Made by a program: the position numbers and the translations under genes
Assembly (NCBI GenBank): GCA_029821875.1
Contig: JALGXW010000003.1
Location: 62,001-126,000 of the forward strand
Length of the DNA: 64,000 nt
Direction: 5' to 3'
Source of the DNA: Candidatus Hebobacterum abditum
GTDB lineage: Bacteria > Armatimonadota > Hebobacteria > Hebobacterales > Hebobacteraceae
The notes under the pieces: generated by a model
What the model saw: the letters and a program-made list of their open reading frames with translations, nothing else
Database searches by the model: none
What the model was told of the DNA's origin: nothing
Shown: positions 4,471-58,506 of the stretch, one piece after another
How the letters are laid out: the number at the start of each line of letters is the position of its first letter
Position numbering within the stretch: the stretch's first letter is position 1

Positions 4471-4559
4471 CCTGAGACGCAACAGTCTGTGGTTTGGCGC
4501 AAGCGGAACATGGGAAGAACCCAGGTAGAGAGGCGAGACGGCAGTCAAGGGCGAGACCA

Positions 4560-5711
4560 GTGAGCGACTTGGCCTTCGACCGCTATATGACGTACCTGAC
4601 CGCGATCATCTACTGGACGCTTGCGGTGTGCTGGCTTGCGATCATCGTCTTCTATCTCAGGCAGTACATCAGGTTCAAGCGGATATATCCCCTTCTCACC
4701 ACTCTGCTCATCGTGCTGTTCGTCGACGGCACGCGCACGCTGATCGAAAGCGTCTACTTCGGCGCCCGACACACGGCGAAAGCGGGATGGCTCCCGGCCC
4801 ACGTCTACGACATTCTGGATCAGTCATACTATGTTGCGATTCCCAAAACGATCAACCTGGTCGCCGCTCTGATCATTATCCTCGTGATCGTCCGGAACTG
4901 GTTCCGCAACCTCGAGGAAGAGCAGCACCGAAGGAGAAGCGCGGAGCAGTTTCGGGCCGAGCTGCTGTCGCTCGCTTCTCACGAGCTACGCGCGCCGCTG
5001 ACTTCGATCCGGGGCTATGCCAACACGCTCGTGCGGGAGTACGGCAAGCTGGGCGAGGCCACCCAGAGAGAGTTCCTGGAGGGCATCGCGACAGAGTCCG
5101 AGCGGCTCAGCCACCTCGTGTCCGACCTGCTCGACATGAGCCAGATTGAGGAAGGGAGACTTCGGGTCGATCTGCGCGCAGTTTCGCCGCAGCGCCTCTG
5201 CGAGGAAGCAGTGGGAACGGCGAGCCACCCGGACACGAGCCACCACCTCAGAGTGGCCGTCGAGCCCGATCTCCCCGATGTCGTTGCTGATCCGAGTCGT
5301 ATCCATCAGGCTCTGTCGAACCTCATCAGCAACGCGGTGAAATTCTCCGCCGAGCACAGCGAGATAACGGTTGGGGCGCGGCGCAGGAACGACCACGTGG
5401 AGTTCTACGTGACGGACAGTGGAATCGGCATCCCGCGCGACGAGCAGCGAAAGCTCTTCACGAGGTTCCACAGGGCGGCCAACGCCCATGGGACGGAAGC
5501 GCCCGGGGCCGGGCTTGGGCTCTATATCACCAGGGGCATTGTGCAGGCGCACGGCGGCAAGATCGGCGTCGAGAGCGAGCTCGGGCGCGGGAGCACCTTC
5601 CATTTCACTCTCCCGACTGTCGAGGGGCGGGTGCGGGCCGAGGGGGTCGCTTCTGGGAGCGCGCCCCGCGGGTCGAGGGAGGGCCAGGCCGGGGGTCAGG
5701 CACAGGCATGA
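4560..5711 (+). CDS. Membrane sensor histidine kinase
   Basis: A 383-aa orphan sensor kinase. The N-terminal ~110 residues hold three hydrophobic segments (about residues 10-34, 40-55 and 95-118) with little extracytoplasmic sequence, so it probably senses within or at the membrane. A HisKA domain follows with phospho-accepting His141 in the H-box [14 protein letters not shown]. The HATPase domain then has an N-box [11 protein letters not shown]1 DSGIGIP, F-box and G2 GAGLGLYI. The C-terminal ~25 residues are Gly/Ala/Arg rich. Start choice: GTG 4560 has AAGGG 8 bp upstream. TTG 4494 and ATG 4587 are alternatives. No response regulator is adjacent. Three regulators elsewhere in the window lack cognate kinases, but pairing is speculative. 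Confidence 0.9.
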
Positions 5712-19786: not shown

Positions 19787-20484
19787 CCTCGACCTCCCTC
19801 GCCAGTCTGCCCGCGGCCGCCGCTGGAGGCGACCTCTCGGGCAGGCTCAGCGTCCTGCTTGCCAGATGGGGCAGGCTGGCCCGGGTTCTTGACCAGATAG
19901 AGGTCTATGGTGATGTTGCCGTTCACCCGGGGATAGCCGTCCCGCGTATCTGCTGCGATCTCAACCCGTTCGACGGTGAGCAAACGCTTGTAGGTTTCCA
20001 GCTTCCGCAGCAGATGGAAAGAAGACAGGAATGTACCAGAGTAGTTCACCGTGTGGGGAACCTTCTGTATGACGGGCCGGGGGACGTTGGGATCCTGGTC
20101 TGCATCCTGTTTCTGACCCTGCGGGCTCCTCGGAACAGCGGACCGAGCTGTGTCGGCGCGGCGCACCACGTTCAGCGTGTTGGTGGTTTCCGAGCAGAAG
20201 TCGATCAGGTCGCTCAGGAACAGCTGTTCCTCGTCGGCGCCCAGGATGCCGAACTTCTCGTAGCGAGACTCGCCGGGCCCCGGAGCACCCGCGATGCCGG
20301 CGTTCTCGATCTCCTTCCGCATATCGGCCAGGTGCTTGCTGGCGTCAGTCAGATCCTGATCGACGCGATCCAGGCGGCCGATCCGCGGCGAGACCAGAAC
20401 GAGGAAGCACAGCAGGCCGCACACGAAGATGGTGCAGACAGTGGCAAGCTGCGCGTAGCGCTTCATGCGGTCGTGCGGGGTCAT
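19783..20484 (-). CDS. pilO: PilO-like type IV pilus assembly protein
   Basis: A 233-aa bitopic inner-membrane protein: one helix (about residues 11-33), then a coiled coil (LDRVDQDLTDASKHLADMRKEIEN) and a periplasmic ferredoxin-like domain with FLSDLIDFCSET and FLSSFHLLRKLETYKRLLTVERVEI, characteristic of PilO/GspM. It forms the periplasmic alignment complex with PilN and PilP. The C-terminal ~30 residues are polar and Gly-rich. ATG 20484 overlaps the pilMN stop by 4 bp, implying coupled translation. Confidence 0.82.
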   Translation of the reverse strand: MTPHDRMKRYAQLATVCTIFVCGLLCFLVLVSPRIGRLDRVDQDLTDASKHLADMRKEIENAGIAGAPGPGESRYEKFGILGADEEQLFLSDLIDFCSETTNTLNVVRRADTARSAVPRSPQGQKQDADQDPNVPRPVIQKVPHTVNYSGTFLSSFHLLRKLETYKRLLTVERVEIAADTRDGYPRVNGNITIDLYLVKNPGQPAPSGKQDAEPAREVASSGGRGQTGEGGRG

Positions 20485-22091
20485 TGGGTCACCTCCTGCA
20501 CCTCAGACGCACGGGCGAATGCAGCCATCGGAGGCGGCTGTATTCCCCGCAGCAGAGCGCCGTTGATCTGATAGCGGATCACAGTTGACCCGCGCGAGTA
20601 GACATCGTCCTTGGTCAGTGAGCCAAGGCGCACGTTACTCAGATAGGGAGAGCTGCCGAGACGCTCGATGGCATCAGGGATGGTCTCCCGGTTTGTCGAG
20701 AGGCCCGTCAGCGTCAGTCTGGAGCTGTCCGGCGAGGCCATCCTGATCAGCCACATGTCCCGCGGAAGCCGGTCGGATACGTCGACGAGTATCTGAGACC
20801 AGCGCACGGCTCTCTCGCGGGCGAGACGCGCGGTCTGCCGCTCTACCTCGCTGTACAATGCCAGCTCGGTCGCCTTGGCGGCACGCAGGGCGTCCAGCTC
20901 TGGCTGCAATCTGACGATCTCCCTCTCTGTCGCGCCGAGCTGTGTCTCCTTCTTCCTGATCTTGCCGCCGAGCGACGAGGCCCAGAGCAGGGCGATCGCC
21001 ACCAGTACGACGACGGCCGCGGCAGCGACCTTGATGTAGGGTCGTGCCGGCCGCCACATCGTGCTCGAGGGCGGGATCAGGTTTATCGGGAACAGAACGT
21101 CAGCTTCCCGAAGGGCGGAGAGAGAGCTTCCCCTGATAAGCGCCAGTGTGAGGCTGCGCGTATCGCCGGCCGCCTGCGAGTCCACCTCCGCCGGGAGGCG
21201 GATCCCCTCATCCGGCCGGCCCAGCTGGACGGGGAGCTGGAGCTGCTCGGCAAGGTGGGAGGCAATGAGGTCCGCTCTCGGGTGGTCGGCCGCTAGAATG
21301 ACTCGCTGCACGGCCGACCGCGGGAATTGGTTCTGGAAGAACCGGAAGCAGTGCGTCAGCTCGGAGTAGAGCTGTGGCGGCGGCGTGAAGGGATCATGCT
21401 CTTGGGCGGGCGGAGTCATCCAGTCGCCCTGGTCGGTCTGCTCCGGCAGCCCGGCGTTGGCGGTGTAGCAGAGACGAAGGACTCCGCCGTCAAACACCAT
21501 GACGTCGGTCTTTGCCTCCCCCACCACGGCCAGCGCCACGACCCCGTCGGCGGAGATCTGCTCTCGATAGGCGTTGGCCGCCGTGACCGGAGCGGCCTCC
21601 ACAGACAGCAACTCCAGGCCAGCGGCGCGAGCGCACTCCTGACACTGCTCGACGGTGGCCGAACGGGAGGCGGCCAGGAGCACATTTGACATGGGGTTTC
21701 CGTCTTCCTCGAACTCCTCGACCGTGGAGCAGTCTACGTTGATGCTGTGTTCGGCGAAGACGGCATAGCGCTCTGCAACGGAGCGGACCGCGCCCAGCAT
21801 GTCCTCCCCTGGCATGGCCGGCAGCTTGATGAGCTGAGTGATCGCGGTCCCTTCGGACAGGACGACCACAGCGTCTCGGGCCGCCACTTGCTTCTGACTG
21901 AGGAAGGTGCCAATGGCGCGCCCGAGCGCCTCTCCATCGGCGAGCTGGCCGCCGTCAAACGCTCCGGAGGGTGCGTCGATATCCCCAAGGATGGAAACGC
22001 GAAGCTCCGCATCTGCGAAGTGCGCTTCGGCCAGCGTGATCTTGCTGGGGTCAAGCACTATTGCCAAGAACGGCGCTGTTTGCAGTGCCAT
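20481..22091 (-). CDS. pilM: PilM-PilN fusion, type IV pilus assembly
   Basis: A 536-aa protein combining two normally separate components. Residues 1 to ~330 form the actin-like PilM domain (FLAIVLDPSKITLAEA, QLIKLPAMPGEDM, SVEAAPVTAANAY, YSELTHCFRFFQNQFP). Residues ~345-536 form PilN: a membrane helix (VAAAAVVVLVAIALLWAS), a coiled coil and a periplasmic domain. In most species PilM binds the cytoplasmic N-terminal tail of PilN. Here that contact is made covalent and the INLIPPS motif of PilN (LFPINLIPPSS, about 337-347) sits at the junction. AGAGGT precedes ATG 22091. Upstream is a prepilin gene, 17 bp away. Confidence 0.88.
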   Translation of the reverse strand: MALQTAPFLAIVLDPSKITLAEAHFADAELRVSILGDIDAPSGAFDGGQLADGEALGRAIGTFLSQKQVAARDAVVVLSEGTAITQLIKLPAMPGEDMLGAVRSVAERYAVFAEHSINVDCSTVEEFEEDGNPMSNVLLAASRSATVEQCQECARAAGLELLSVEAAPVTAANAYREQISADGVVALAVVGEAKTDVMVFDGGVLRLCYTANAGLPEQTDQGDWMTPPAQEHDPFTPPPQLYSELTHCFRFFQNQFPRSAVQRVILAADHPRADLIASHLAEQLQLPVQLGRPDEGIRLPAEVDSQAAGDTRSLTLALIRGSSLSALREADVLFPINLIPPSSTMWRPARPYIKVAAAAVVVLVAIALLWASSLGGKIRKKETQLGATEREIVRLQPELDALRAAKATELALYSEVERQTARLARERAVRWSQILVDVSDRLPRDMWLIRMASPDSSRLTLTGLSTNRETIPDAIERLGSSPYLSNVRLGSLTKDDVYSRGSTVIRYQINGALLRGIQPPPMAAFARASEVQEVTQ

Positions 22092-22108
22092 TGCCTAACC
22101 TCTCGAAC

Positions 22109-22618
22109 CTACTTATTGCGGAGACGTGCCGCCGACTGCAGCCGGGCCGAGTGCCGGCTCCGATCCAACTGCAGCAGGACCGTGACGCTGTGCGCTGCGT
22201 CATCGGTCGCCGCTGGCTGACCGTCTCGGTCGAAGTAGTCCAGCTGCAGCTCAGCAACGTCCGTCGCCAACGCGACACCGCCCGAGTAGGCGCCGGACGC
22301 GACGCCGCAGTAGCGATGGAGCGTGCCTTCATTCACCCAATACCGGCAGTTTCTGTCGTCTTGGTCTACGAACCAAATCCTGTTCGGCGATGCATCGACG
22401 ACGCCGGACGCACCCCGCAGCCTCGAGATCATGTCGTCCATTGCGACCTGAGCCTTCCGGTTCACCTCTGTCTGCAGGCTCGTCGTGTTCTGGGTCTTGA
22501 TGCCCGCCACGAAGATGCGGTGGACTCCTGCAAGCACCAGCAGCCCAACGAGGATAGCCACGAGCACCTCGGTCAGCGTGAAGGCGCCCGCCCTTCTCCC
22601 ATGTCTTAGATTCCTCAT
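22109..22618 (-). CDS. Minor prepilin, PilW/GspJ-like
   Basis: A ~169-aa prepilin with a class III signal: leader MRNLRHGRRAGA, then FTLTEVLVAILVGLLVLAG. Cleavage is expected between Ala12 and Phe13. The residue at -1 is Ala instead of the near-invariant Gly, and Glu5 of the mature protein is kept. The C-terminal part (Asn-Arg-Lys-Ala-Gln-Val-Ala-Met-Asp-Asp-Met, then ELQLDYFDRDG) fits PilW/GspJ minor pilins. ATG 22636 is an alternative start giving a 6-residue longer leader. It probably sits at the pilus tip complex. Confidence 0.8.
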   Translation of the reverse strand: MRNLRHGRRAGAFTLTEVLVAILVGLLVLAGVHRIFVAGIKTQNTTSLQTEVNRKAQVAMDDMISRLRGASGVVDASPNRIWFVDQDDRNCRYWVNEGTLHRYCGVASGAYSGGVALATDVAELQLDYFDRDGQPAATDDAAHSVTVLLQLDRSRHSARLQSAARLRNK

Positions 22619-22640
22619 TATGGGTCTTGCGTCCATGCCA

Positions 22641-23072
22641 TCAAATGCCGGCCGGTGTGAAGTACGTCGTCAGAGTCGTGATCGGCCTCTCGGTACCGGC
22701 CTGGTAGACACTCACTGCCACCTTGTTCAGGCCAGAGCGGCTGTCGTCGTCGGGTCTGATCGTCTCGACCACCACCTCGACTTCGAAGAAGGAATCGCCC
22801 GCCTTGAGGTCAGCGGCCACGCGTGGCTCGCTGGACATGCTCGCGAAGTCGAAGTCCGAGCGTCGAGCCCCGGCCTTCACCTGCTCCATCTTGTCGCGGG
22901 CGATGCTCGTGGCGGCCGCTGTCAGGGTTGACTGACTCGTAGAGACGAGGGCCTGCGACAGCCCGATCACGACGGGCAGCAGAACGATCGCTACGAGGCT
23001 CAGCGCGACGAGGATCTCGACCAGCGTCAGGCCGTGACTCCCCCGCCACTTTGTCGTGAACCTTCGAGTCAT
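22641..23072 (-). CDS. Minor prepilin, PilV/GspI-like
   Basis: A 143-aa prepilin with leader MTRRFTTKWRGSHG and mature N-terminus LTLVEILVALSLVAIVLLPV. Cleavage is after Gly14, Leu replaces Phe at +1, and Glu5 is present. The length and the IARDKMEQVKAG segment fit the PilV/GspI group. The start ATG overlaps the end of the upstream PilX-like gene in the sequence AAGTGATATG, so translation is probably coupled. It is a minor pilin priming assembly. Confidence 0.85.
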   Translation of the reverse strand: MTRRFTTKWRGSHGLTLVEILVALSLVAIVLLPVVIGLSQALVSTSQSTLTAAATSIARDKMEQVKAGARRSDFDFASMSSEPRVAADLKAGDSFFEVEVVVETIRPDDDSRSGLNKVAVSVYQAGTERPITTLTTYFTPAGI

Positions 23073-23073
23073 A

Positions 23074-24516
23074 TCACTTCTCGCGCCATGTCCGCGGCAT
23101 CGGCTGCATTTCTCCGCGATCCGGCTCGCGGAACCACGGCGGGGGAGTCTCCCCCGGTTTGTACTCGCAGCCATCCAGATCGTATATCCCGTATCTGCTC
23201 AGGTAATTCCCACCCAAGCGGACGTTTGGTGAGACGATGCAGCCCTCGACGTTCGAGGCCTGGCCGGTGTAGCTGCTGCCGGCCCAGACGATGCCGGAGA
23301 CGCGGAGACGATCGCGCAGGTCGTCCTGCCCGACGCCTTGATCTCGTACGACGAGGTCACGCCCAGCGATGATGGTGGGGTAGTAGACGCGTTCGTCGCA
23401 CGGGTCCTCGGGGTTGGCGACCTCGGGCTCGATGGAGGCATTGGCAACGCCGTAGAAGGTGACGCTTCCGGTGGCAATGATGGTGCCCTTGATCTGGGCG
23501 CTGTTCTTGATCTGGACGTCGCCGTGGACGAAGTAGTTGCCCTCGTAAACCTCGAACTCGCTGCTCTTACCAAAGATCACTGTGAAGGGCTTGGTGCTGG
23601 AGTTGCACACGTAGGCGTCGGGATTGTCGAAGCCGTACCAGTCGGGCATGAAGAAGTTCTCGTCATATGCCGCATGCCCGTCGCTGGCATGGGAGATGTA
23701 GTCCAGCGCCGTGGAGGCGGACTCGCCGTACCAGTACATGTGCCGATCCGGGTCGTCCGCGGCGTAGACAGTGGTATCGGTGCAGGCCGGCAGTGTCGCC
23801 TGGTCCGGCCAGCGCGGGTCGGGCGTGCCATCGCCATCCGGGTCGCGGGGAATCTGCTCCTTCGTTACGGGGTCGCAGCTCAGGTCATGCTGCACCCAGT
23901 CGTGCCACTTGTCCCACATGGGGGATGGCAGCACCGCGCCGCCGGCGGGGCCATTAGGGTGATCCAGAAAGTCGTCTGGCTCTCCGACCGCCCCGTCGAT
24001 CTCTACTTCGCCCGAGCCGCCTTTGACATCGGCGTATGGAGGATCCGCCATGCCAGGCTGGTCACTGTCGGAGTAGTAGACGTGATTCCAGGCCCAGTCG
24101 CCGTCAGTATCCAGCTGCACCTCGACCGTGCGGTCCAGGTTGTAGACCGTACCGGGGAGCGCGGTGTTGACGGCTGCTGTTGATGTCACGGTGACCCAGT
24201 CGTCCCGGAGGGGATCGGCCACCCACGTGACATGATAGGAGCCGGCCGCGCCGCCGTTCGCCAGCACACCTTCGTATGGTTGCGGAGGCGGGTTGTTGAC
24301 TCCCTGAGCCCTCCAGTCGGCGATCATGGCGTTGACACCGGCCTCCGCCAGATACACGGCCTGCGTGTACTCATGTCTCGACCCCGCTAGGAGCCGGCCC
24401 GAGATGGCCATGGCCAAGATGGCCGTGATGAGAATGGCTATGACCAGGATGACCATCAGAGCTGCTATGAATGCGAAGCCGTTCTGTGGGCGGCGTTCCG
24501 ATCGTATCAGCATCAT
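23074..24516 (-). CDS. PilX-like large minor pilin
   Basis: A 480-aa protein with a prepilin-type start: short basic leader MMLIRSERRPQNG, then FAFIAALMVILVIAILITAILAMAISGRL, then HEYTQAVYLAEAGVNAMIADWR, the PilX N-terminal signature. Cleavage is expected between Gly and Phe. Unlike ordinary PilX (~200 aa), it carries a ~400-residue exposed domain rich in Asp, Gly and Tyr with a GTIIATGSVTFYG-type beta-helix stretch (residues ~340-450), as in bactofilin-like or polymer-forming beta solenoids. It may be a tip adhesin. ATG 24516 has GGAG 7 bp upstream. The 2-bp gap to the next gene implies coupling. Confidence 0.8.
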   Translation of the reverse strand: MMLIRSERRPQNGFAFIAALMVILVIAILITAILAMAISGRLLAGSRHEYTQAVYLAEAGVNAMIADWRAQGVNNPPPQPYEGVLANGGAAGSYHVTWVADPLRDDWVTVTSTAAVNTALPGTVYNLDRTVEVQLDTDGDWAWNHVYYSDSDQPGMADPPYADVKGGSGEVEIDGAVGEPDDFLDHPNGPAGGAVLPSPMWDKWHDWVQHDLSCDPVTKEQIPRDPDGDGTPDPRWPDQATLPACTDTTVYAADDPDRHMYWYGESASTALDYISHASDGHAAYDENFFMPDWYGFDNPDAYVCNSSTKPFTVIFGKSSEFEVYEGNYFVHGDVQIKNSAQIKGTIIATGSVTFYGVANASIEPEVANPEDPCDERVYYPTIIAGRDLVVRDQGVGQDDLRDRLRVSGIVWAGSSYTGQASNVEGCIVSPNVRLGGNYLSRYGIYDLDGCEYKPGETPPPWFREPDRGEMQPMPRTWREK

Positions 24517-24548
24517 CGCCTCACTCCTTTCGACACCGTGCCAAGACA

Positions 24549-24992
24549 TCACAATGAGCTATGGCCCGAGTCTGGCACCGGGCAAGTGATGGCTATGCCC
24601 TCCGGGCTTGGGTCGGTGGCAGCGTCGTAGGAGTACTGGTAGTGATACGCGCCCTCATCGTCCAGAGGACAGCGGGGCTCTTCCAGGAAATACGCCGGAT
24701 CCTGAAGGAACTGTTCGAAGGCGGCTTGGTCAGCTGGGTATGTGCGTTCCTGGGTAACCGCATCTCGGTTCTTCGTCCAGTAGATGTTGAGAGCCGAGTG
24801 GATGGCCCCCACATTGTCCTGGCACGCGAGTTCGTCCGCCGCGGCCTTCCCGCGATAGACCGACAGCGTGGCGATCAGCAACACGACGGCCGCAAGCAGG
24901 ATGACACCCAGCAACTCGGGAAGGGTCCATCCCGATTCGCTGCCTGTGGCTGCGATCGCCTCTGTCTTTCGCTTCCTCGAAGCCGTCACCAT
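24549..24992 (-). CDS. Prepilin-like protein with atypical cleavage site
   Basis: A ~147-aa protein with a long leader (about 21 residues, ending GSESG) followed by WTLPELLGVILLAAVVLLIATLSVY. It keeps Gly at -1 and Glu at +5, but has Trp at +1 instead of Phe/Met and Pro at +4. The C-terminal half contains NVGAIHSALNIYW and a Pro/Asp-rich end with a CPLDDEGAYHYQY segment that resembles the short C-terminal disulfide pilins. ATG 25004 is an alternative start. It is located among clear pilin genes, so a role as a minor pilin is likely, but processing is not certain. Confidence 0.7.
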   Translation of the reverse strand: MVTASRKRKTEAIAATGSESGWTLPELLGVILLAAVVLLIATLSVYRGKAAADELACQDNVGAIHSALNIYWTKNRDAVTQERTYPADQAAFEQFLQDPAYFLEEPRCPLDDEGAYHYQYSYDAATDPSPEGIAITCPVPDSGHSSL

Positions 24993-25047
24993 CGCACATC
25001 CCATGCCTGCACGAAGTCAACGGTCCCCCACCGTCTTCCTCAGTGTC

Positions 25048-25503
25048 CTACTTGTGCTCGAAGGCCTTCTTCCAGACACCTTCGAAGTGGTCGGAGGTGT
25101 TCAGTATCACCCCCACCTGTGGGTTGTCCGGTGTCGGCGCGCCCCCGCTGCTCCCATCCTGGAGAATAGGTACCACCTCGTACGGCACGCCGAACGGGCA
25201 CATCGGCACTTCGGTGAGAGGTGGAGTGACCACCCACGAAGGGGCCGTCGGCTCGCACATCTCCTCGATTGTTGTCGGCCACACGTCGTTGCGTGAGAAG
25301 AACACCTGAAACGCAGTGGAGGTAATCTCGATCTGCGCCTGACAGCCGCGGACTCTCGATCTGTAGACCGCGCTGAAGTAGCGCGGCAGTGCAATCAGCA
25401 TCAGCGCCGCCAGGATGAGCAGGACCACGAGCAATTCCACGAACGTGAATCCACTGCCGCGGCGGAGAGTAGTGTTGCGTTGTCTGGACGGAGCTCTCAC
25501 CAT
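25048..25503 (-). CDS. Type IV pilin (second major-like prepilin)
   Basis: A 151-aa prepilin: leader of 18 residues ending SG, then FTFVELLVVLLILAALMLIALPRYFSAVY. Cleavage is at Gly18/Phe19 and Glu5 is present. The globular part has CPFGVPYEVVPILQDGSSGGAPTPDNPQVGVI, closely parallel to the pilin encoded at 25621-26094, so the two are tandem paralogs. GAGGAG lies about 12 bp before ATG 25503. A strong hairpin separates the two, which may set a lower level for this gene. Confidence 0.9.
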   Translation of the reverse strand: MVRAPSRQRNTTLRRGSGFTFVELLVVLLILAALMLIALPRYFSAVYRSRVRGCQAQIEITSTAFQVFFSRNDVWPTTIEEMCEPTAPSWVVTPPLTEVPMCPFGVPYEVVPILQDGSSGGAPTPDNPQVGVILNTSDHFEGVWKKAFEHK

Positions 25504-25573
25504 TGTTGCGGTGCTCCTCGGTTGGACGCCGAATTGTGGAACATCCTAGATGGACCATTCCGACGATGGACCG

Positions 25574-25608
25574 GTCGGGAGGCGAGGCGTAGGGCCTCGC
25601 CCCCCGAC
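25574..25608 (-). terminator. 15-bp hairpin between tandem pilin genes
   Basis: GTCGGGAGGCGAGGC (25574-25588) pairs with GCCTCGCCCCCCGAC (25594-25608) with one mismatch and a 5-nt loop. It lies between the first pilin gene and the rest of the downstream pil genes. With no T-run, it is best read as a partial terminator or 3'-end stabiliser that makes the first pilin mRNA more abundant than the distal part. Confidence 0.6.
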
Positions 25609-25620
25609 AGAAGACTGTCC

Positions 25621-26094
25621 TTACTCCAGGTGCGTGTCGGCTGTCTGCCACTGCGCGTTCGCCCAGTGCTCAGCCCAGCTTGACACGACACCAATCTGCG
25701 GGTTGAGCGGAGTGCCAGCGACGCCTATCGACCCATCGGCCAACACCGACAGCAGCACGTAGTCGTGAGTCACGGTCGCGGTGTCGAACGGGCAGATCGG
25801 CATCTCAGTCAACTGACCGCCCACGAGACCAGCCGGAGTCGTGGGCACGGGGACCGTGCTATCGGGCGGAAGCATGTCTTCGACTTCGACCGGCCACTCC
25901 TTGTTCTGCGCGAAGTAGGCCTGGACAGCGGTGTTGACGATCTTGAAGTTGGACTGGCACGCCCGCACGCGGCCTGAGTAGATCGCTGCGAAGTACCTCG
26001 GCAGCGCGATGGCGACCAACACCGAGATGATGATGATCACCACCAGCAACTCGACCATCGTGAAACCCCGCTTGGTTCGCAGTCTCCTCGTCAT
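25621..26094 (-). CDS. Type IV major pilin
   Basis: A 157-aa prepilin and the best candidate for the major subunit. Leader MTRRLRTKRG (10 residues), cleavage Gly10/Phe11, mature FTMVELLVVIIIISVLVAIALPRYFAAIYSGRVRACQSN, which is textbook pilin or pseudopilin, followed by a globular domain with two Cys. ATG 26094 has the perfect ribosome-binding site AAAGGAGGTGA. The frame extends to 26196 but without a start signal. An AAAAGT-GGG-ACTTTT inverted repeat at 26195-26209 lies in the gap after pilC. The gene is followed by a 15-bp hairpin. High expression is expected. Confidence 0.93.
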   Translation of the reverse strand: MTRRLRTKRGFTMVELLVVIIIISVLVAIALPRYFAAIYSGRVRACQSNFKIVNTAVQAYFAQNKEWPVEVEDMLPPDSTVPVPTTPAGLVGGQLTEMPICPFDTATVTHDYVLLSVLADGSIGVAGTPLNPQIGVVSSWAEHWANAQWQTADTHLE

Positions 26095-26282
26095 CTTCTC
26101 ACCTCCTTTTCGAGCGGGTTGGTATTGCATAGGAGTGCCGGGCAGCACCCTACATAGCCAGAGTACAGTGCGGAATGCCCTCGGACAATCGCCCAAAAGT
26201 GGGACTTTTCGTCACACGAATAGCGTAGGCACTACGGGTGAGTGAGGCGTGCGTGCCGGGGGCCTCCGAGGGCCCAGCAGGG

Positions 26283-27518
26283 CTACGGCCCCGCTGTGGC
26301 GCCCGGCCCCTGCTTGAGCAGTGCCGTCAGGTTGAAGATCGGCATGTACATCGCGATCGCCACAAAACCCACGATGCCGCCCAACACGATGGTGAGGAGC
26401 GGCTCCATGGCCGTGGTGAGCCGCTTGACCGTGTACTCGACGTCCCGGTCGTAGAAGTCAGCGACCTTGTTCATCATGCCGCCCAGATCGCCGGACTCCT
26501 CGCCAGCGGCGACCATCTGGATGACCATGGCGGGGAACTCCCCGCTCTGCTGCATCGGGTCGGCAAGCTTGTCGCCTTCAGTCACGCGCGTAATGGCAAG
26601 CCGGAGCGCCGACTGGATGACCCAGTTGCCGGCCACCCGAGCTGCGTCTTCCAGCGCCTGCACCAGCGGGACCCCTGTGCTAACCAGCGTGCCCAGCACC
26701 CGGATGGAGCGCGCGATGGCGATCTTTCGGACAAGGGGGCCGAACATCGGCGCTCTGATCTTGAGGCTATCGGCCTTCGGGCGGCCGCGTTCAGATCGCG
26801 CCCACGACCGAAGCCCCAGGACGGCGCCCACGATGACCAGCGCGACCGCCCACCACCAGGAGACGAAGAAATCGGATATCCACATGAGCGCCTTCGTGGT
26901 CCCGGGGAGATCGAGGCCCGCGCTCTGGTACACGTCTGAGAAGACGGGTATGACAAAGAGCAGAACGAAGGCCACTATCAGAACCGCGAGGCCGATGACC
27001 AGCACAGGGTATACGAATGCGGACCTCACCTTCTGTCGCAGCTCGGCGTCCTTGTCCATCTGCACCGCGATGCGCTCCAGCGACAGCTCGAGGAATCCGC
27101 CGGACTCGCCCGCCCTGATGAGGCTTATCATGATGTTGGAGAAGATGTGCGGGAACTTGCTCATCGAGCCCGACAGCGACTGTCCGTCCTGGACGCGCTG
27201 GCGTATCTCGCCGATGGCGCGGGCGAGCTCAGGGCTCTCCGTCTGGTCGCGCAGTGCTCCAAGGCACGGAATCAGCGGTATCCCCGCTCCCATCATGGCG
27301 GCGAACTGCCATGAGAACACGACGAGGTCGTCGTGGCGGACCCGGCGAGGCAGAACGCCGAGGGCCTTCTCGCTTCGGTCTTTCACCTCGTCCACCGAGA
27401 CGGGGAAGTAGCCCATCTCGGTCACTTTCAGCTTCACGAGGCGAGCATTGTCCGCCACGAGAGTGCCCCGTACGAGCGCACCCGAGTTGTCTCTAGCCCT
27501 ATAGCGGAAAGTAGCCAT
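26283..27518 (-). CDS. pilC: Type IV pilus inner-membrane platform protein PilC
   Basis: A 411-aa polytopic protein of the T2SF/PilC/GspF family with two repeats of the ~120-residue T2SF domain. The first holds FSWQFAAMMGAGIPLIPCLGALRDQ and SLSGSMSKFPHIFSNIMISLIRAGESGGFL. The second holds RSIRVLGTLVSTGVPLVQALEDAARVAGN and FPAMVIQMVAAGEESGDLGGMMNKVADFYDRDVEYTV. Membrane helices are at about 168-192, 215-235 and near the C-terminus. It forms the base that PilB rotates or drives. It is 9 bp from pilB. Confidence 0.96.
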   Translation of the reverse strand: MATFRYRARDNSGALVRGTLVADNARLVKLKVTEMGYFPVSVDEVKDRSEKALGVLPRRVRHDDLVVFSWQFAAMMGAGIPLIPCLGALRDQTESPELARAIGEIRQRVQDGQSLSGSMSKFPHIFSNIMISLIRAGESGGFLELSLERIAVQMDKDAELRQKVRSAFVYPVLVIGLAVLIVAFVLLFVIPVFSDVYQSAGLDLPGTTKALMWISDFFVSWWWAVALVIVGAVLGLRSWARSERGRPKADSLKIRAPMFGPLVRKIAIARSIRVLGTLVSTGVPLVQALEDAARVAGNWVIQSALRLAITRVTEGDKLADPMQQSGEFPAMVIQMVAAGEESGDLGGMMNKVADFYDRDVEYTVKRLTTAMEPLLTIVLGGIVGFVAIAMYMPIFNLTALLKQGPGATAGP

Positions 27519-27527
27519 GTATCAGCC

Positions 27528-29228
27528 TCAGTCTTCCTCTACGTAGATGACTCTCATCAACTCTTCCGGTGATGTGCTGCCGTCGAGCACCTTCGCCAGG
27601 CCGGACTCCTTCATCAGCATCATGCCGTCAGCCACTGCGGCGTCGCGTATCTCGATCGCCGACTGGCCCGCCATCACGAGGCGCTTGATGCTGTCCGTCA
27701 TGCGCAGCACCTCGAAGACGCCCGTGCGGCCCCGGTATCCGCGGTTCGCGCAGCCCGGGCAGCCCTCTCCCTGGGCGAACAGCATGTCATCCCTTTCCTT
27801 GCCCTTCGGGATGCCAAGCTCGTCGAGGAGTTCGGTGTCTGGCTTGTAGGTGCTCTTGCAGTCTCGGCATACCACGCGCACCAGCCTCTGTCCAACGACG
27901 CCGATGACCGACGATGCTATCAAGAAGGGCTCCACGCCCATGTCGAGCAATCGCGGGAGCGCGGAGGCCGCGTCATTCGTATGCAGCGAACTGAACACTA
28001 GGTGGCCTGTGAGAGCGGCCTGGACGGCGATCTCAGCCGTCTCGAGGTCGCGGATCTCGCCGACCATGATCACATCGGGATCCTGACGCAGGATCGCCCT
28101 CAAGCCGCGGGCGAAGGTGATGTTCGCAGCGGTGTGCACCTGGCTCTGGTTGATTCCCACGAGCTGGTACTCGACGGGGTCCTCCACCGTGACGATGTTG
28201 CGGTCCTCGCTGTTGACCCGGTTCAGGGCCGTGTAGAGCGCTGTCGTCTTGCCTGACCCTGTAGGCCCCGTGGCGAGGATCATCCCGTATGGCCGCGAGA
28301 TCAAGGACTCCACCAGCTTCTGCTGCTCCGGCAAGAAGCCGAGGTCTTCGAGCTGAAGCAGAACCGAGGACTTGTCGAGTATTCGCATCACGACTTTCTC
28401 GCCGAACACGGTCAGCAGCGTAGAGACCCGCAGGTCATAGTCTCCGCCGTTCACTGTCACCGAGATCCGGCCGTCCTGCGGCAGGCGCCGCTCGGCGATG
28501 TTCATCCCGGCCATGATCTTGATGCGGGACACGACCGCAGCCTGCAGGCGCTTCGGTATCTGCATCATGTCGTAGAGAATGCCGTCGACGCGGTAGCGGA
28601 CGCGCACTCCATGCTCTCGGGGCTCGACGTGGATGTCGCTTGCGCTGCCCGTAACCGCGCCCTGGACGATCGAATCGACAAGGCGCACGACCGGTGCGTC
28701 CTCCACCATGCGCTCTAGCTCTCTCACGGTCATGGGCTCGTCGTTCTCCTCGCCCATGGTGGAGGTATCCTCGATCGCCTTGTAGGCGGCCACGCGCCCG
28801 TCGAAGAGCTTGTTGGTGGTGAGGAGGACGTCCTCCTCGGGAGCGAAGAACGTGCGGACGTCCATCCCCGTCACGAGACGCATGGACTCGATCGCCGTCA
28901 GGTTGAGCGGATCGGCCATGGCAACACTCATGACGTTCCCATCGAGATCGAAGGGAACGGCGCGATAGCTGCGCACCATGTTCTCAGGCAGACAGGTGGC
29001 CACCTCAGACGAGATAGCGACCTCTGAGAGCTCGATGGAGGGAACGCCGAGCTGATCCTGCAGCGCTTCCGCGAGGTCGCGCTTCTTGATCACTCCGCGC
29101 CGGAGCAGGACCTGTCCGAGGAAGCCCTTCGTCTGCTGCTGCTCCGCCAGCGCCTTCTCCAGGTCCTCCTGAGACACCGCGCCCCGGGTCAGGAGTATCT
29201 GGCCAAGTTTCTTCGCCTTGAGTTTCAC
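27528..29228 (-). CDS. pilB: Type IV pilus extension ATPase PilB with tandem MshEN motifs
   Basis: A 566-aa hexameric ATPase that powers pilus extension. N-terminal MshEN-type repeats: LGQILLTRGAVSQEDLEKAL (residues 8-27, closing Gln30) and LGQVLLRRGVIKKRDLAEAL (37-56, closing Gln59) match the RLGxxLxxxG...LxxALxxQ c-di-GMP-binding pattern. The catalytic domain has Walker A GPTGSGKTTAL, an Asp box, Walker B and His boxes (VMVGEIRDLETAEIAVQAAL, TGHLVFSSLHTNDA). A Cys-X2-Cys pair (CRDC, CPGC) forms the zinc knuckle typical of PilB. The start is set at GTG 29228 because homology starts there. The long upstream extension has no pilin-like sense. Confidence 0.95.
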   Translation of the reverse strand: MKLKAKKLGQILLTRGAVSQEDLEKALAEQQQTKGFLGQVLLRRGVIKKRDLAEALQDQLGVPSIELSEVAISSEVATCLPENMVRSYRAVPFDLDGNVMSVAMADPLNLTAIESMRLVTGMDVRTFFAPEEDVLLTTNKLFDGRVAAYKAIEDTSTMGEENDEPMTVRELERMVEDAPVVRLVDSIVQGAVTGSASDIHVEPREHGVRVRYRVDGILYDMMQIPKRLQAAVVSRIKIMAGMNIAERRLPQDGRISVTVNGGDYDLRVSTLLTVFGEKVVMRILDKSSVLLQLEDLGFLPEQQKLVESLISRPYGMILATGPTGSGKTTALYTALNRVNSEDRNIVTVEDPVEYQLVGINQSQVHTAANITFARGLRAILRQDPDVIMVGEIRDLETAEIAVQAALTGHLVFSSLHTNDAASALPRLLDMGVEPFLIASSVIGVVGQRLVRVVCRDCKSTYKPDTELLDELGIPKGKERDDMLFAQGEGCPGCANRGYRGRTGVFEVLRMTDSIKRLVMAGQSAIEIRDAAVADGMMLMKESGLAKVLDGSTSPEELMRVIYVEED

Positions 29229-29678
29229 AACACCCAGCCTATCCCGGACACGGCGCCGGCGCTTGCGGGCAGATCGGCCTGTGTGTGACGGCCGCGGTGA
29301 TGCACCATGCCTCCGCCCCGCGCCATGTCGCACGCGCGCTAGCCTGCCCGCGCATGTCTCGCGTGCCACGAGGAGTCAAGTCCATATGCCATAGCTCCCT
29401 AACGTTTTCTACCACAAACCTGGCGTGGCTCACGTCGCAGATTGCGCCCTTGTGCCCCCCTGGTGCACGGTCACCGCTCATCGTCGGCAATACCCCCGAA
29501 GAGCGGACACGATGCAACACACCCGTCGCGAAGGGCACTGGGGAAGTGGTATCTCGGGTTGGACGCACAGAGGCACGAGGGTCGGTCATTCGCCTCGTGG
29601 ATATACCCGGGATCACAGTCGGTGGCGCCGCCTCGTGTCCACTCTCGGACACGGGGCCTCGCCACGGAGGATGCAGCA
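29229..29678. other. 450-bp divergent region between pilB and a small gene
   Basis: It should hold the pil operon promoter (-) and the promoter of the 67-aa gene (+). I see no convincing -35/-10 pair on either strand and no sigma-54 element with correct spacing. Long overlapping frames on both strands here are products of high GC, not genes. Confidence 0.5.
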
Positions 29679-57325: not shown

Positions 57326-57943
57326 ATGGCCGACCACGATTCATGTGCGCTGCTGGGGCAGTTGCTGCTCGCTCAGGGGACTATCACCCCGGAGGAAATG
57401 CGCGAGGCGCTGAGACGGCAGCAGTCCAGCGGACAGCGGATCGGCGACATCCTCGCAGAGATAGGCGCCGTGGCGCCAAGGCAGCTCGAGAGGGCGCTCC
57501 GCGTCCAGGCTCGACTCCGTGGCAAGGCGGAGGAGGATCGGCCGTTCATCCTTGTCGTCGACGATGACCCCGAGGTCGGCGCAGTTGTGGCCGACATACT
57601 CTGTGGCGGCGGCTACCGAGTGGGTGTTGCCCAGAATGAAGCGGAGGCGATGGCCGCGGTAATGGCACCCGATCCCCCCTCCCCCGCCGTCATCGTTCTC
57701 GATCTGGGCCTGCCGGAGTATGGTGGGATCGAACTGCTGACTGTGTTCAGGAAAGCAGGCCAGACCCAAAGCGTGCCGGTCGTCGTCCTAACCGGCCGGC
57801 CCGATCTCGAGGTCGAGATACGCAATCGCGGGCTAGCCATCAGCGCCTTCCTCGCGAAGCCAGTACCGGCGCGACAACTGCTCGAAGTGGTGGAGCAAGC
57901 CATCCGCGAAGGGTCAGAGGTCTGCTCCACACCCGCCTCCTAG
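57326..57943 (+). CDS. Response regulator with N-terminal MshEN-type (GspE N) domain
   Basis: A 205-aa two-domain protein. Residues 9-61 are two MshEN-type repeats. Repeat 1 (9-32) reads LLGQLLLAQGTITPEEMREA plus LRRQ, and repeat 2 (38-61) reads RIGDILAEIGAVAPRQLERA plus LRVQ. Both keep Gly11/Gly40, Leu14/Leu43, Gly18/Gly47, Leu29/Leu58 and Gln32/Gln61 of the c-di-GMP motif; repeat 2 also has the leading Arg38. Residues 73-195 are a receiver: Asp79-Asp81, acceptor Asp126, Thr in VVVLTGR, Lys in FLAKP. No output domain. It could be a phospho- and c-di-GMP-responsive regulator for pilus or secretion ATPases. Start ATG 57326 has GGAG nearby. A TACAAT -10 lies at 57266-57271. Confidence 0.88.
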   Translation: MADHDSCALLGQLLLAQGTITPEEMREALRRQQSSGQRIGDILAEIGAVAPRQLERALRVQARLRGKAEEDRPFILVVDDDPEVGAVVADILCGGGYRVGVAQNEAEAMAAVMAPDPPSPAVIVLDLGLPEYGGIELLTVFRKAGQTQSVPVVVLTGRPDLEVEIRNRGLAISAFLAKPVPARQLLEVVEQAIREGSEVCSTPAS

Positions 57944-58104: not shown

Positions 58105-58506
58105 GTGAGTCAGAAGTCGACACGCGCTGAGGACGCCCGTGCTCGTGTCCTGATCGTGGAAGACGAGCCCTCGGTGATGCAGTTCCTGGAGGCGCTCCTG
58201 AGGGGACGCGGCTACGAGACAATCGAAGCCTGCAACGGCGTCGAGGCCATGGTGGCCCTAACCGTCCCGCAGTCGGAACTCCCAGATGCGATACTGCTGG
58301 ACGTCGGGCTGCCGCTGGAAGGCGGCGTGTCGGTGCTAACGTTCCTGAGGAATGTGTTGCGCAGCGGAATCCCTGTTATCGTCGTCACCGGCCGACAGGA
58401 GCCCGAAGAGGAGGCGGCTCTCCGCGAGCTCGGAATCAGCGCTTTCCTGCGCAAGCCGCCGAATGCTCAGCAGATCCTCTCTGCCCTGTCGGAAGTGCTC
58501 CCGTGA
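58105..58506 (+). CDS. Single-domain response regulator
   Basis: A 133-aa receiver domain: Glu19-Asp20 with DEP following, acceptor Asp66 in ILLDVGLPLEGG, Thr in VIVVTGR, Lys in FLRKPPN. It has no output domain. GTG 58105 has GGAGA about 8 bp upstream. The longer frame to 57955 is Arg/Ala-rich and unlikely. It is the second regulator in tandem with the MshEN fusion (161 bp gap), so the two may be in one phosphorelay. No kinase is adjacent. Confidence 0.88.
   Translation: MSQKSTRAEDARARVLIVEDEPSVMQFLEALLRGRGYETIEACNGVEAMVALTVPQSELPDAILLDVGLPLEGGVSVLTFLRNVLRSGIPVIVVTGRQEPEEEAALRELGISAFLRKPPNAQQILSALSEVLP

Follow-up and report, generated by a model that had tools for sequence, protein, structure and literature searches.

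A conserved MshEN_N-receiver fusion protein in Candidatus Hebobacterum abditum and its possible role as an orphan response regulator

The fusion gene and its surroundings

The window analysed here is a 64,000-nucleotide stretch of contig JALGXW010000003.1 of Candidatus Hebobacterum abditum. On its forward strand, an open reading frame which begins with an ATG at 57326 and whose stop codon ends at 57943 encodes a protein of 205 residues, as had been described originally. The product is a response regulator with an N-terminal MshEN_N domain, and matches the profiles NF053729 and PF00072. The reverse strand across 57326-57943 is interrupted by several stops. Against the congeneric ortholog the whole gene gave a dN of 0.06 and a dS of 0.89 (NG86), ie a ratio of about 0.07, and for the MshEN part alone the corresponding values were 0.045 and 0.84. 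The low dN relative to dS identifies 57326-57943 as a functional gene under purifying selection. Scans for a promoter and a terminator found none.

The receiver domain occupies residues 74-200 (57545-57925, forward strand). PF00072 aligned with residues 75-189 at 62.0 bits (cut-off 30.2), and the acidic pair Asp79/Asp80, the acceptor Asp126, Thr156 and Lys178 are all in place. D80, D126, T156 and K178 are retained in every ortholog having that region. The domain is connected to MshEN_N by a short linker, residues 62-73 (57509-57544, forward strand), into which helix 4 of the AlphaFold model runs as far as about residue 65. The direct junction of MshEN with a receiver whose acceptor is Asp126, proposed from the sequence, was thus borne out with all its catalytic residues. 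Membership of the PATAN/DUF4388 family was rejected, as PF14332 reached 16.6 bits against a cut-off of 25, and over a short stretch only.

In the source genome and two relatives the order of genes is DUF47, PiT, an ACT protein, the fusion, REC2, a xylose-isomerase-like gene and Gfo/Idh/MocA; the PiT phosphate transporter in one of these three genomes is a different copy in the opposite orientation. REC2 (58105-58506, forward strand) is a stand-alone receiver (PF00072, 67.6 bits) and the nearest paralog of the receiver in the fusion, to which it is 40% identical. The two genes are adjacent in the three genomes, and lie at separate loci in at least G002 and G006. The fusion gene comes after PiT in G005 and is adjoined by a PiT gene and DUF47 in G007; a VIT/VWA protein is its neighbour in G003 and G002, and a sulfatase gene in G003 and G006. 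Neither in the window genome nor at the ortholog loci was a pil, chemosensory or kinase gene found beside it, and the sole kinase among the window ORFs scanned, at 4494-5711, is 53 kb away. On this basis we regard the fusion as an orphan regulator.

A type IV pilus/secretion cluster lies at 20481-29369 of the window, with an N-methylation pilin, PilC/GspF and PilB/GspE. It also encodes a PilM/PilN fusion protein of 536 residues in which both Pfam domains are found in one chain. The PilB/GspE-type ATPase (27528-29369, reverse strand) does bear the same tandem MshEN motif, as was first noticed (NF053729, 53.7 bits, residues 54-106), yet it is about 28 kb from the fusion gene and unlinked to it. 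An operon with pil genes was sought around the fusion and none was found.

The MshEN_N domain: motif, residues and predicted fold

NF053729, in which NCBIfam models c-di-GMP motifs of the MshE type over 53 positions (cut-off 38 bits), matched residues 10-61 of the fusion protein at 54.4 bits (E = 7.7e-15), and both of the 24-residue repeats claimed at the outset were recovered. By the profile positions and a residue table, and following the motif definition in PMC5013675, motif I is residues 9-32, LLGQLLLAQGTITPEEMREALRRQ (57350-57421), and motif II is residues 38-61, RIGDILAEIGAVAPRQLERALRVQ (57437-57508), both on the forward strand. The spacer between them is the canonical five residues, giving a tandem motif of 53 residues, and the numbering coincides by chance with that of Vibrio cholerae MshE. 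A loose expression for the tandem motif was found at residue 9; when residues 1-75 were shuffled 200,000 times, it never appeared.

Of the contacts made in MshE (PMC5013675), the fusion protein has L10/L54/L58, L29, G11, G40, Q32 and Q61. Each repeat had been said to carry the Gly, Leu and Gln positions of the motif; this holds for the key contacts, but Met25 in motif I and Ile39 in motif II are conservative changes where the consensus has Leu. Position 1 is Leu9 in motif I and Arg38 in motif II, so that a leading Arg is confined to the second repeat, as foreseen, and both residues fit a leading Arg/Lys/Leu. The consensus has been widened to (R/K/L)LG by the authors of the PilF work, in which the K167L substitution raised the affinity for c-di-GMP (2 nM, compared to 6 nM; PMC11731258). 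Leu in place of Arg in motif I is not a defect, because the equivalent PilF variant bound more tightly.

PF05157, the profile put forward as a check on the MshEN assignment, gave no match to the fusion protein at E ≤ 0.1, but the check was mis-specified, since that model covers the other subdomain of MshEN. In the window PilB, PF05157 matches residues 107-193, directly after NF053729, and in the ATPases of the genome that carry both it begins within a few bases of the end of the NF053729 match. PF05157 is therefore the C-terminal subdomain of MshEN, placed after the binding motif, which itself sits in the N-terminal four-helix bundle. The fusion protein does not have this subdomain because the receiver comes directly after MshEN_N. 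Its loss should be no obstacle, as VcMshEN 1-62 is enough by itself to bind c-di-GMP, with a KD of 0.35 μM (PMC5013675). PF05157 was rejected as a test for MshEN here, and domains of this kind would be better detected with NF053729.

The full-length AlphaFold2 model, made from an alignment of 24 rows, had a mean pLDDT of 90.1 and a pTM of 0.86. Helices at residues 3-16, 22-35, 39-45 and 51-65 form a four-helix bundle, which is followed by a (beta/alpha)5 receiver of the CheY fold. Receiver matches swamped the Foldseek list for the full model, and the N-domain (residues 1-72) was therefore folded separately, with a pLDDT of 82. Its best match in the PDB was the MshE/c-di-GMP complex 5HTL, at 0.7-0.9 Å across 52-53 residues, followed by the PilF GSPII-B/c-di-GMP complexes 8PDK and 8PE0 at about 0.5 Å; MshE-like structures were among the data on which AlphaFold was trained, and these complexes may have been too. 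The short length of the domain accounts for the modest Foldseek E-values of these matches (0.01-0.1); the probability was 1.00. Helix 1 is predicted to be already formed through residues 9-11, across the pocket.

Distribution, origin and the c-di-GMP network of the genome

The fusion is present in all eight sampled genomes of the taxonomic family, although two of the copies are incomplete, one having a masked N-terminus and the other being cut by a contig end. There was no full-length match above receiver-only scores in the other 283 genomes of the phylum; the search covered relatives of this protein, and unrelated fusions of a distant MshEN with a distant receiver could escape it. A whole-protein scan of genome contigs gave mainly hits to receivers alone and did not yield a useful homolog of the fusion. 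Five orthologs were compared with NF053729 and scored 44.6-59.7 bits, all above the cut-off. Seven proteins, ie the one in the window and six orthologs with a readable N-terminus, share L9, L10, G11, Q12, L14, L15, L29, Q32, G40, L43, L58 and Q61 without exception, and have Leu or Met at position 25. The Gly and Gln positions (G11, G40, Q32 and Q61) are therefore kept in homologs, in agreement with the original prediction. Position 38 is P in three of the seven, L in one and otherwise R; position 18 varies between G, E and A, and position 47 between G and A, with G18 or G47 altered in two proteins.

In the receiver tree the fusion clade is sister to the clade of the adjacent REC2 (support 93/86), and the nearest MshEN domains outside the family are short ORFs without a receiver (G012, G252, G010, G251 and G061). 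The most economical origin, judged from these two relationships, is one of duplication and joining: in the ancestor of the family, a CheY-like gene was probably duplicated and joined to an MshEN_N gene that had stood alone. Two of these short stand-alone MshEN_N ORFs, from two other families of the phylum, are near an MCP gene (L221:4673-4834, reverse strand) and near CheW/CheA genes (L223:4784-4948, forward strand).

Each receptor class was searched for separately in the source genome, which is 95% complete, so that the absence of a domain is likely rather than certain. GGDEF gave four matches, with an intact GGDEF motif in one protein and AGDEF in an HD-GYP-GAF-GGDEF protein, and HD-GYP gave seven; for EAL and for PilZ there was no match in this 95% complete genome. 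Judged by gene content, c-di-GMP is made by the organism. Because diguanylate cyclases and HD-GYP domains are present, with no match to PilZ or EAL, MshEN seems to be the main recognisable class of c-di-GMP receptor in this genome, and reliance on MshEN without other known receptors has been noted previously in bacteria (PMC5013675). NF053729 has 19 matches in the genome. Six are on ATPases, one is the fusion, and the remainder are short ORFs; in most of these, one or two transmembrane segments are predicted ahead of the motif.

In about eleven small paralogs in the source genome (L008, L010, L011, L012, L014, L015, L019, L020, L022, L024 and L026), a C-terminal MshEN_N motif is combined with a linker that varies between them and, in most, with one or two hydrophobic segments. 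They resemble c-di-GMP receptors anchored in the membrane, with no known output domain; in L024 the key Gln positions are gone. Two small paralogs stand in tandem about 14 kb beyond the window (G000:C91:139847 and 140574), and two are found in C83. A sigma-70 factor (regions 2, 3 and 4) with a C-terminal partial GGDEF domain, whose motif is degenerate (MGGARF), is encoded at L160:1439-2776 (reverse strand; G000:C57, about 51.9-53.3 kb), on a contig shared with type IV pilus ATPases. At L023:106-1722 (reverse strand; G000:C57, about 45.6-47.2 kb) there is a PilT/PilU-family ATPase (TIGR01420, 486.9 bits), to whose N-terminal MshEN region PF05157 matches and NF053729 is borderline, at 32.7-38.2 bits. 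From these two matches, a c-di-GMP domain may be present on a retraction-type motor.

It is tempting to see in MshEN_N a general c-di-GMP receptor module, placed on the pilus/secretion ATPases, on a PilT-type motor, on around a dozen small and mostly membrane-anchored proteins and on a phosphorylatable switch, but we consider this distinctly improbable. If it were true, a two-component signal could gate the MshEN network, for example through phosphorylation-dependent affinity for c-di-GMP.

Possible function and relation to known systems

The architecture, residue conservation, predicted fold and purifying selection established above are consistent with an orphan, output-less response regulator in which c-di-GMP and phosphorylation signals are integrated and whose output is protein-protein contact, a reading to which we attach a probability of about 0.6. 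The N-terminal four-helix MshEN_N bundle would bind one c-di-GMP between its two motifs, as the sequence and the predicted fold suggest, and Asp126 of the receiver would accept a phosphoryl group from a histidine kinase whose gene lies elsewhere. Coupling of the two inputs through the short helix-4 linker would then change the choice of partner. The original proposal that one chain could combine the two signals stands in so far as the motif is joined to a phosphorylatable receiver and its Gly and Gln positions are conserved, but ligand binding and coupling, like phosphorylation and the partner, are steps that we infer.

Alternatively, MshEN_N may now be a dimer or docking module which does not bind c-di-GMP at physiological levels, in which case the protein would be an adaptor controlled by phosphorylation. 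R38 is unconserved, G18 and G47 vary in some orthologs, and helix 1 is predicted to be pre-formed across the pocket. Near-consensus GSPII domains sometimes fail to bind, as in PilF GSPII-A, which remained unable to bind with its consensus fully restored, the N-cap and contacts between subdomains being responsible (PMC12002112). However, PilF GSPII-A had lost two Gln (PMC12002112) that are present in the fusion protein, Leu at position 1 raises affinity, and among orthologs of about 50-90% identity the invariant positions are exactly the ligand-contacting Leu, Gly and Gln. We therefore regard a non-binding domain as unlikely.

It is very unlikely that the fusion protein regulates the type IV pilus, whether by docking on PilB or PilC or by drawing c-di-GMP or a partner away from the MshEN domain that PilB carries. 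The tandem motif is shared with the window PilB, binding of PilB1 by a REC protein of Synechocystis (PATAN-REC PixE) has been reported (review PMC7690835), and solved complexes of the PilB N-domain with PilZ (7lkm, 7lko) show that domains like MshEN can serve for docking. Against this, there is no hint of a PilB-binding surface in the sequence, and pil, chemosensory and kinase genes are absent near the fusion and its orthologs, whose neighbours belong to phosphate transport and sugar metabolism or encode ACT, VIT/VWA or sulfatase proteins. ATPase-sized MshEN ORFs occur across the phylum, including genomes without the fusion, whereas the fusion is limited to one family, and co-occurrence with pil genes, suggested as a survey, was consequently not selective. 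The earlier idea of docking to PilB or competing with it finds no support in these results or in the 28 kb between the two genes. A phosphorelay shared with REC2, for example with the fusion protein as a c-di-GMP-gated phosphate sink for a common kinase, deserves little credence, since the adjacency of the two sister receivers in three genomes is not required elsewhere (separate loci in at least G002 and G006) and neither is adjoined by a kinase gene.

Under the preferred reading, as an integrator of c-di-GMP and phosphorylation, the fusion would be a compact single chain in which two major bacterial signalling systems meet, in a lineage where MshEN is seemingly the dominant recognisable receptor for c-di-GMP. 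If the coupling is real, a protein of 205 residues would be available for direct measurement of cross-talk between c-di-GMP and aspartyl phosphate.

MshEN is not only the N-terminal part of PilB/GspE/MshE ATPases, the setting first regarded as normal for it, as Wang et al. described it in 2016 joined to REC, HD-GYP, CheA, CheX, cyclases and kinases (PMC5013675). Among the proteins cited there is Bd2402, an MshEN response regulator of Bdellovibrio bacteriovorus, for which tight binding of c-di-GMP is mentioned; by that description, rather than by sequence, it has the same pairing of an MshEN c-di-GMP domain and a receiver. The N-terminal domain of V. cholerae MshE (5HTL) and PilF GSPII-B of Thermus thermophilus (8PDK/8PE0) have the same 24+5+24 motif and four-helix bundle, but MshE and PilF carry in addition the C-terminal subdomain (PF05157) and a secretion ATPase, where the fusion protein has MshEN_N and then the receiver. 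PixA of Myxococcus xanthus (PilZ-REC; PMC8316039) likewise consists of a c-di-GMP receptor domain and a receiver, with no other output, and is encoded by an orphan gene; it differs in having PilZ, an unrelated receptor fold, in place of MshEN, and its c-di-GMP binding is dispensable for motility control (PMC8316039). PATAN-REC PixE of Synechocystis (review PMC7690835) is similar in combining a receiver with an extra signalling domain, and has been proposed to bind PilB1, but PATAN/DUF4388 is weak and below the cut-off in the fusion protein, which has no pil link. The MshEN-REC architecture is thus one already reported in 2016, and what is gained here is an additional, well-preserved example from an uncultured lineage, with the favourable Leu at position 1.
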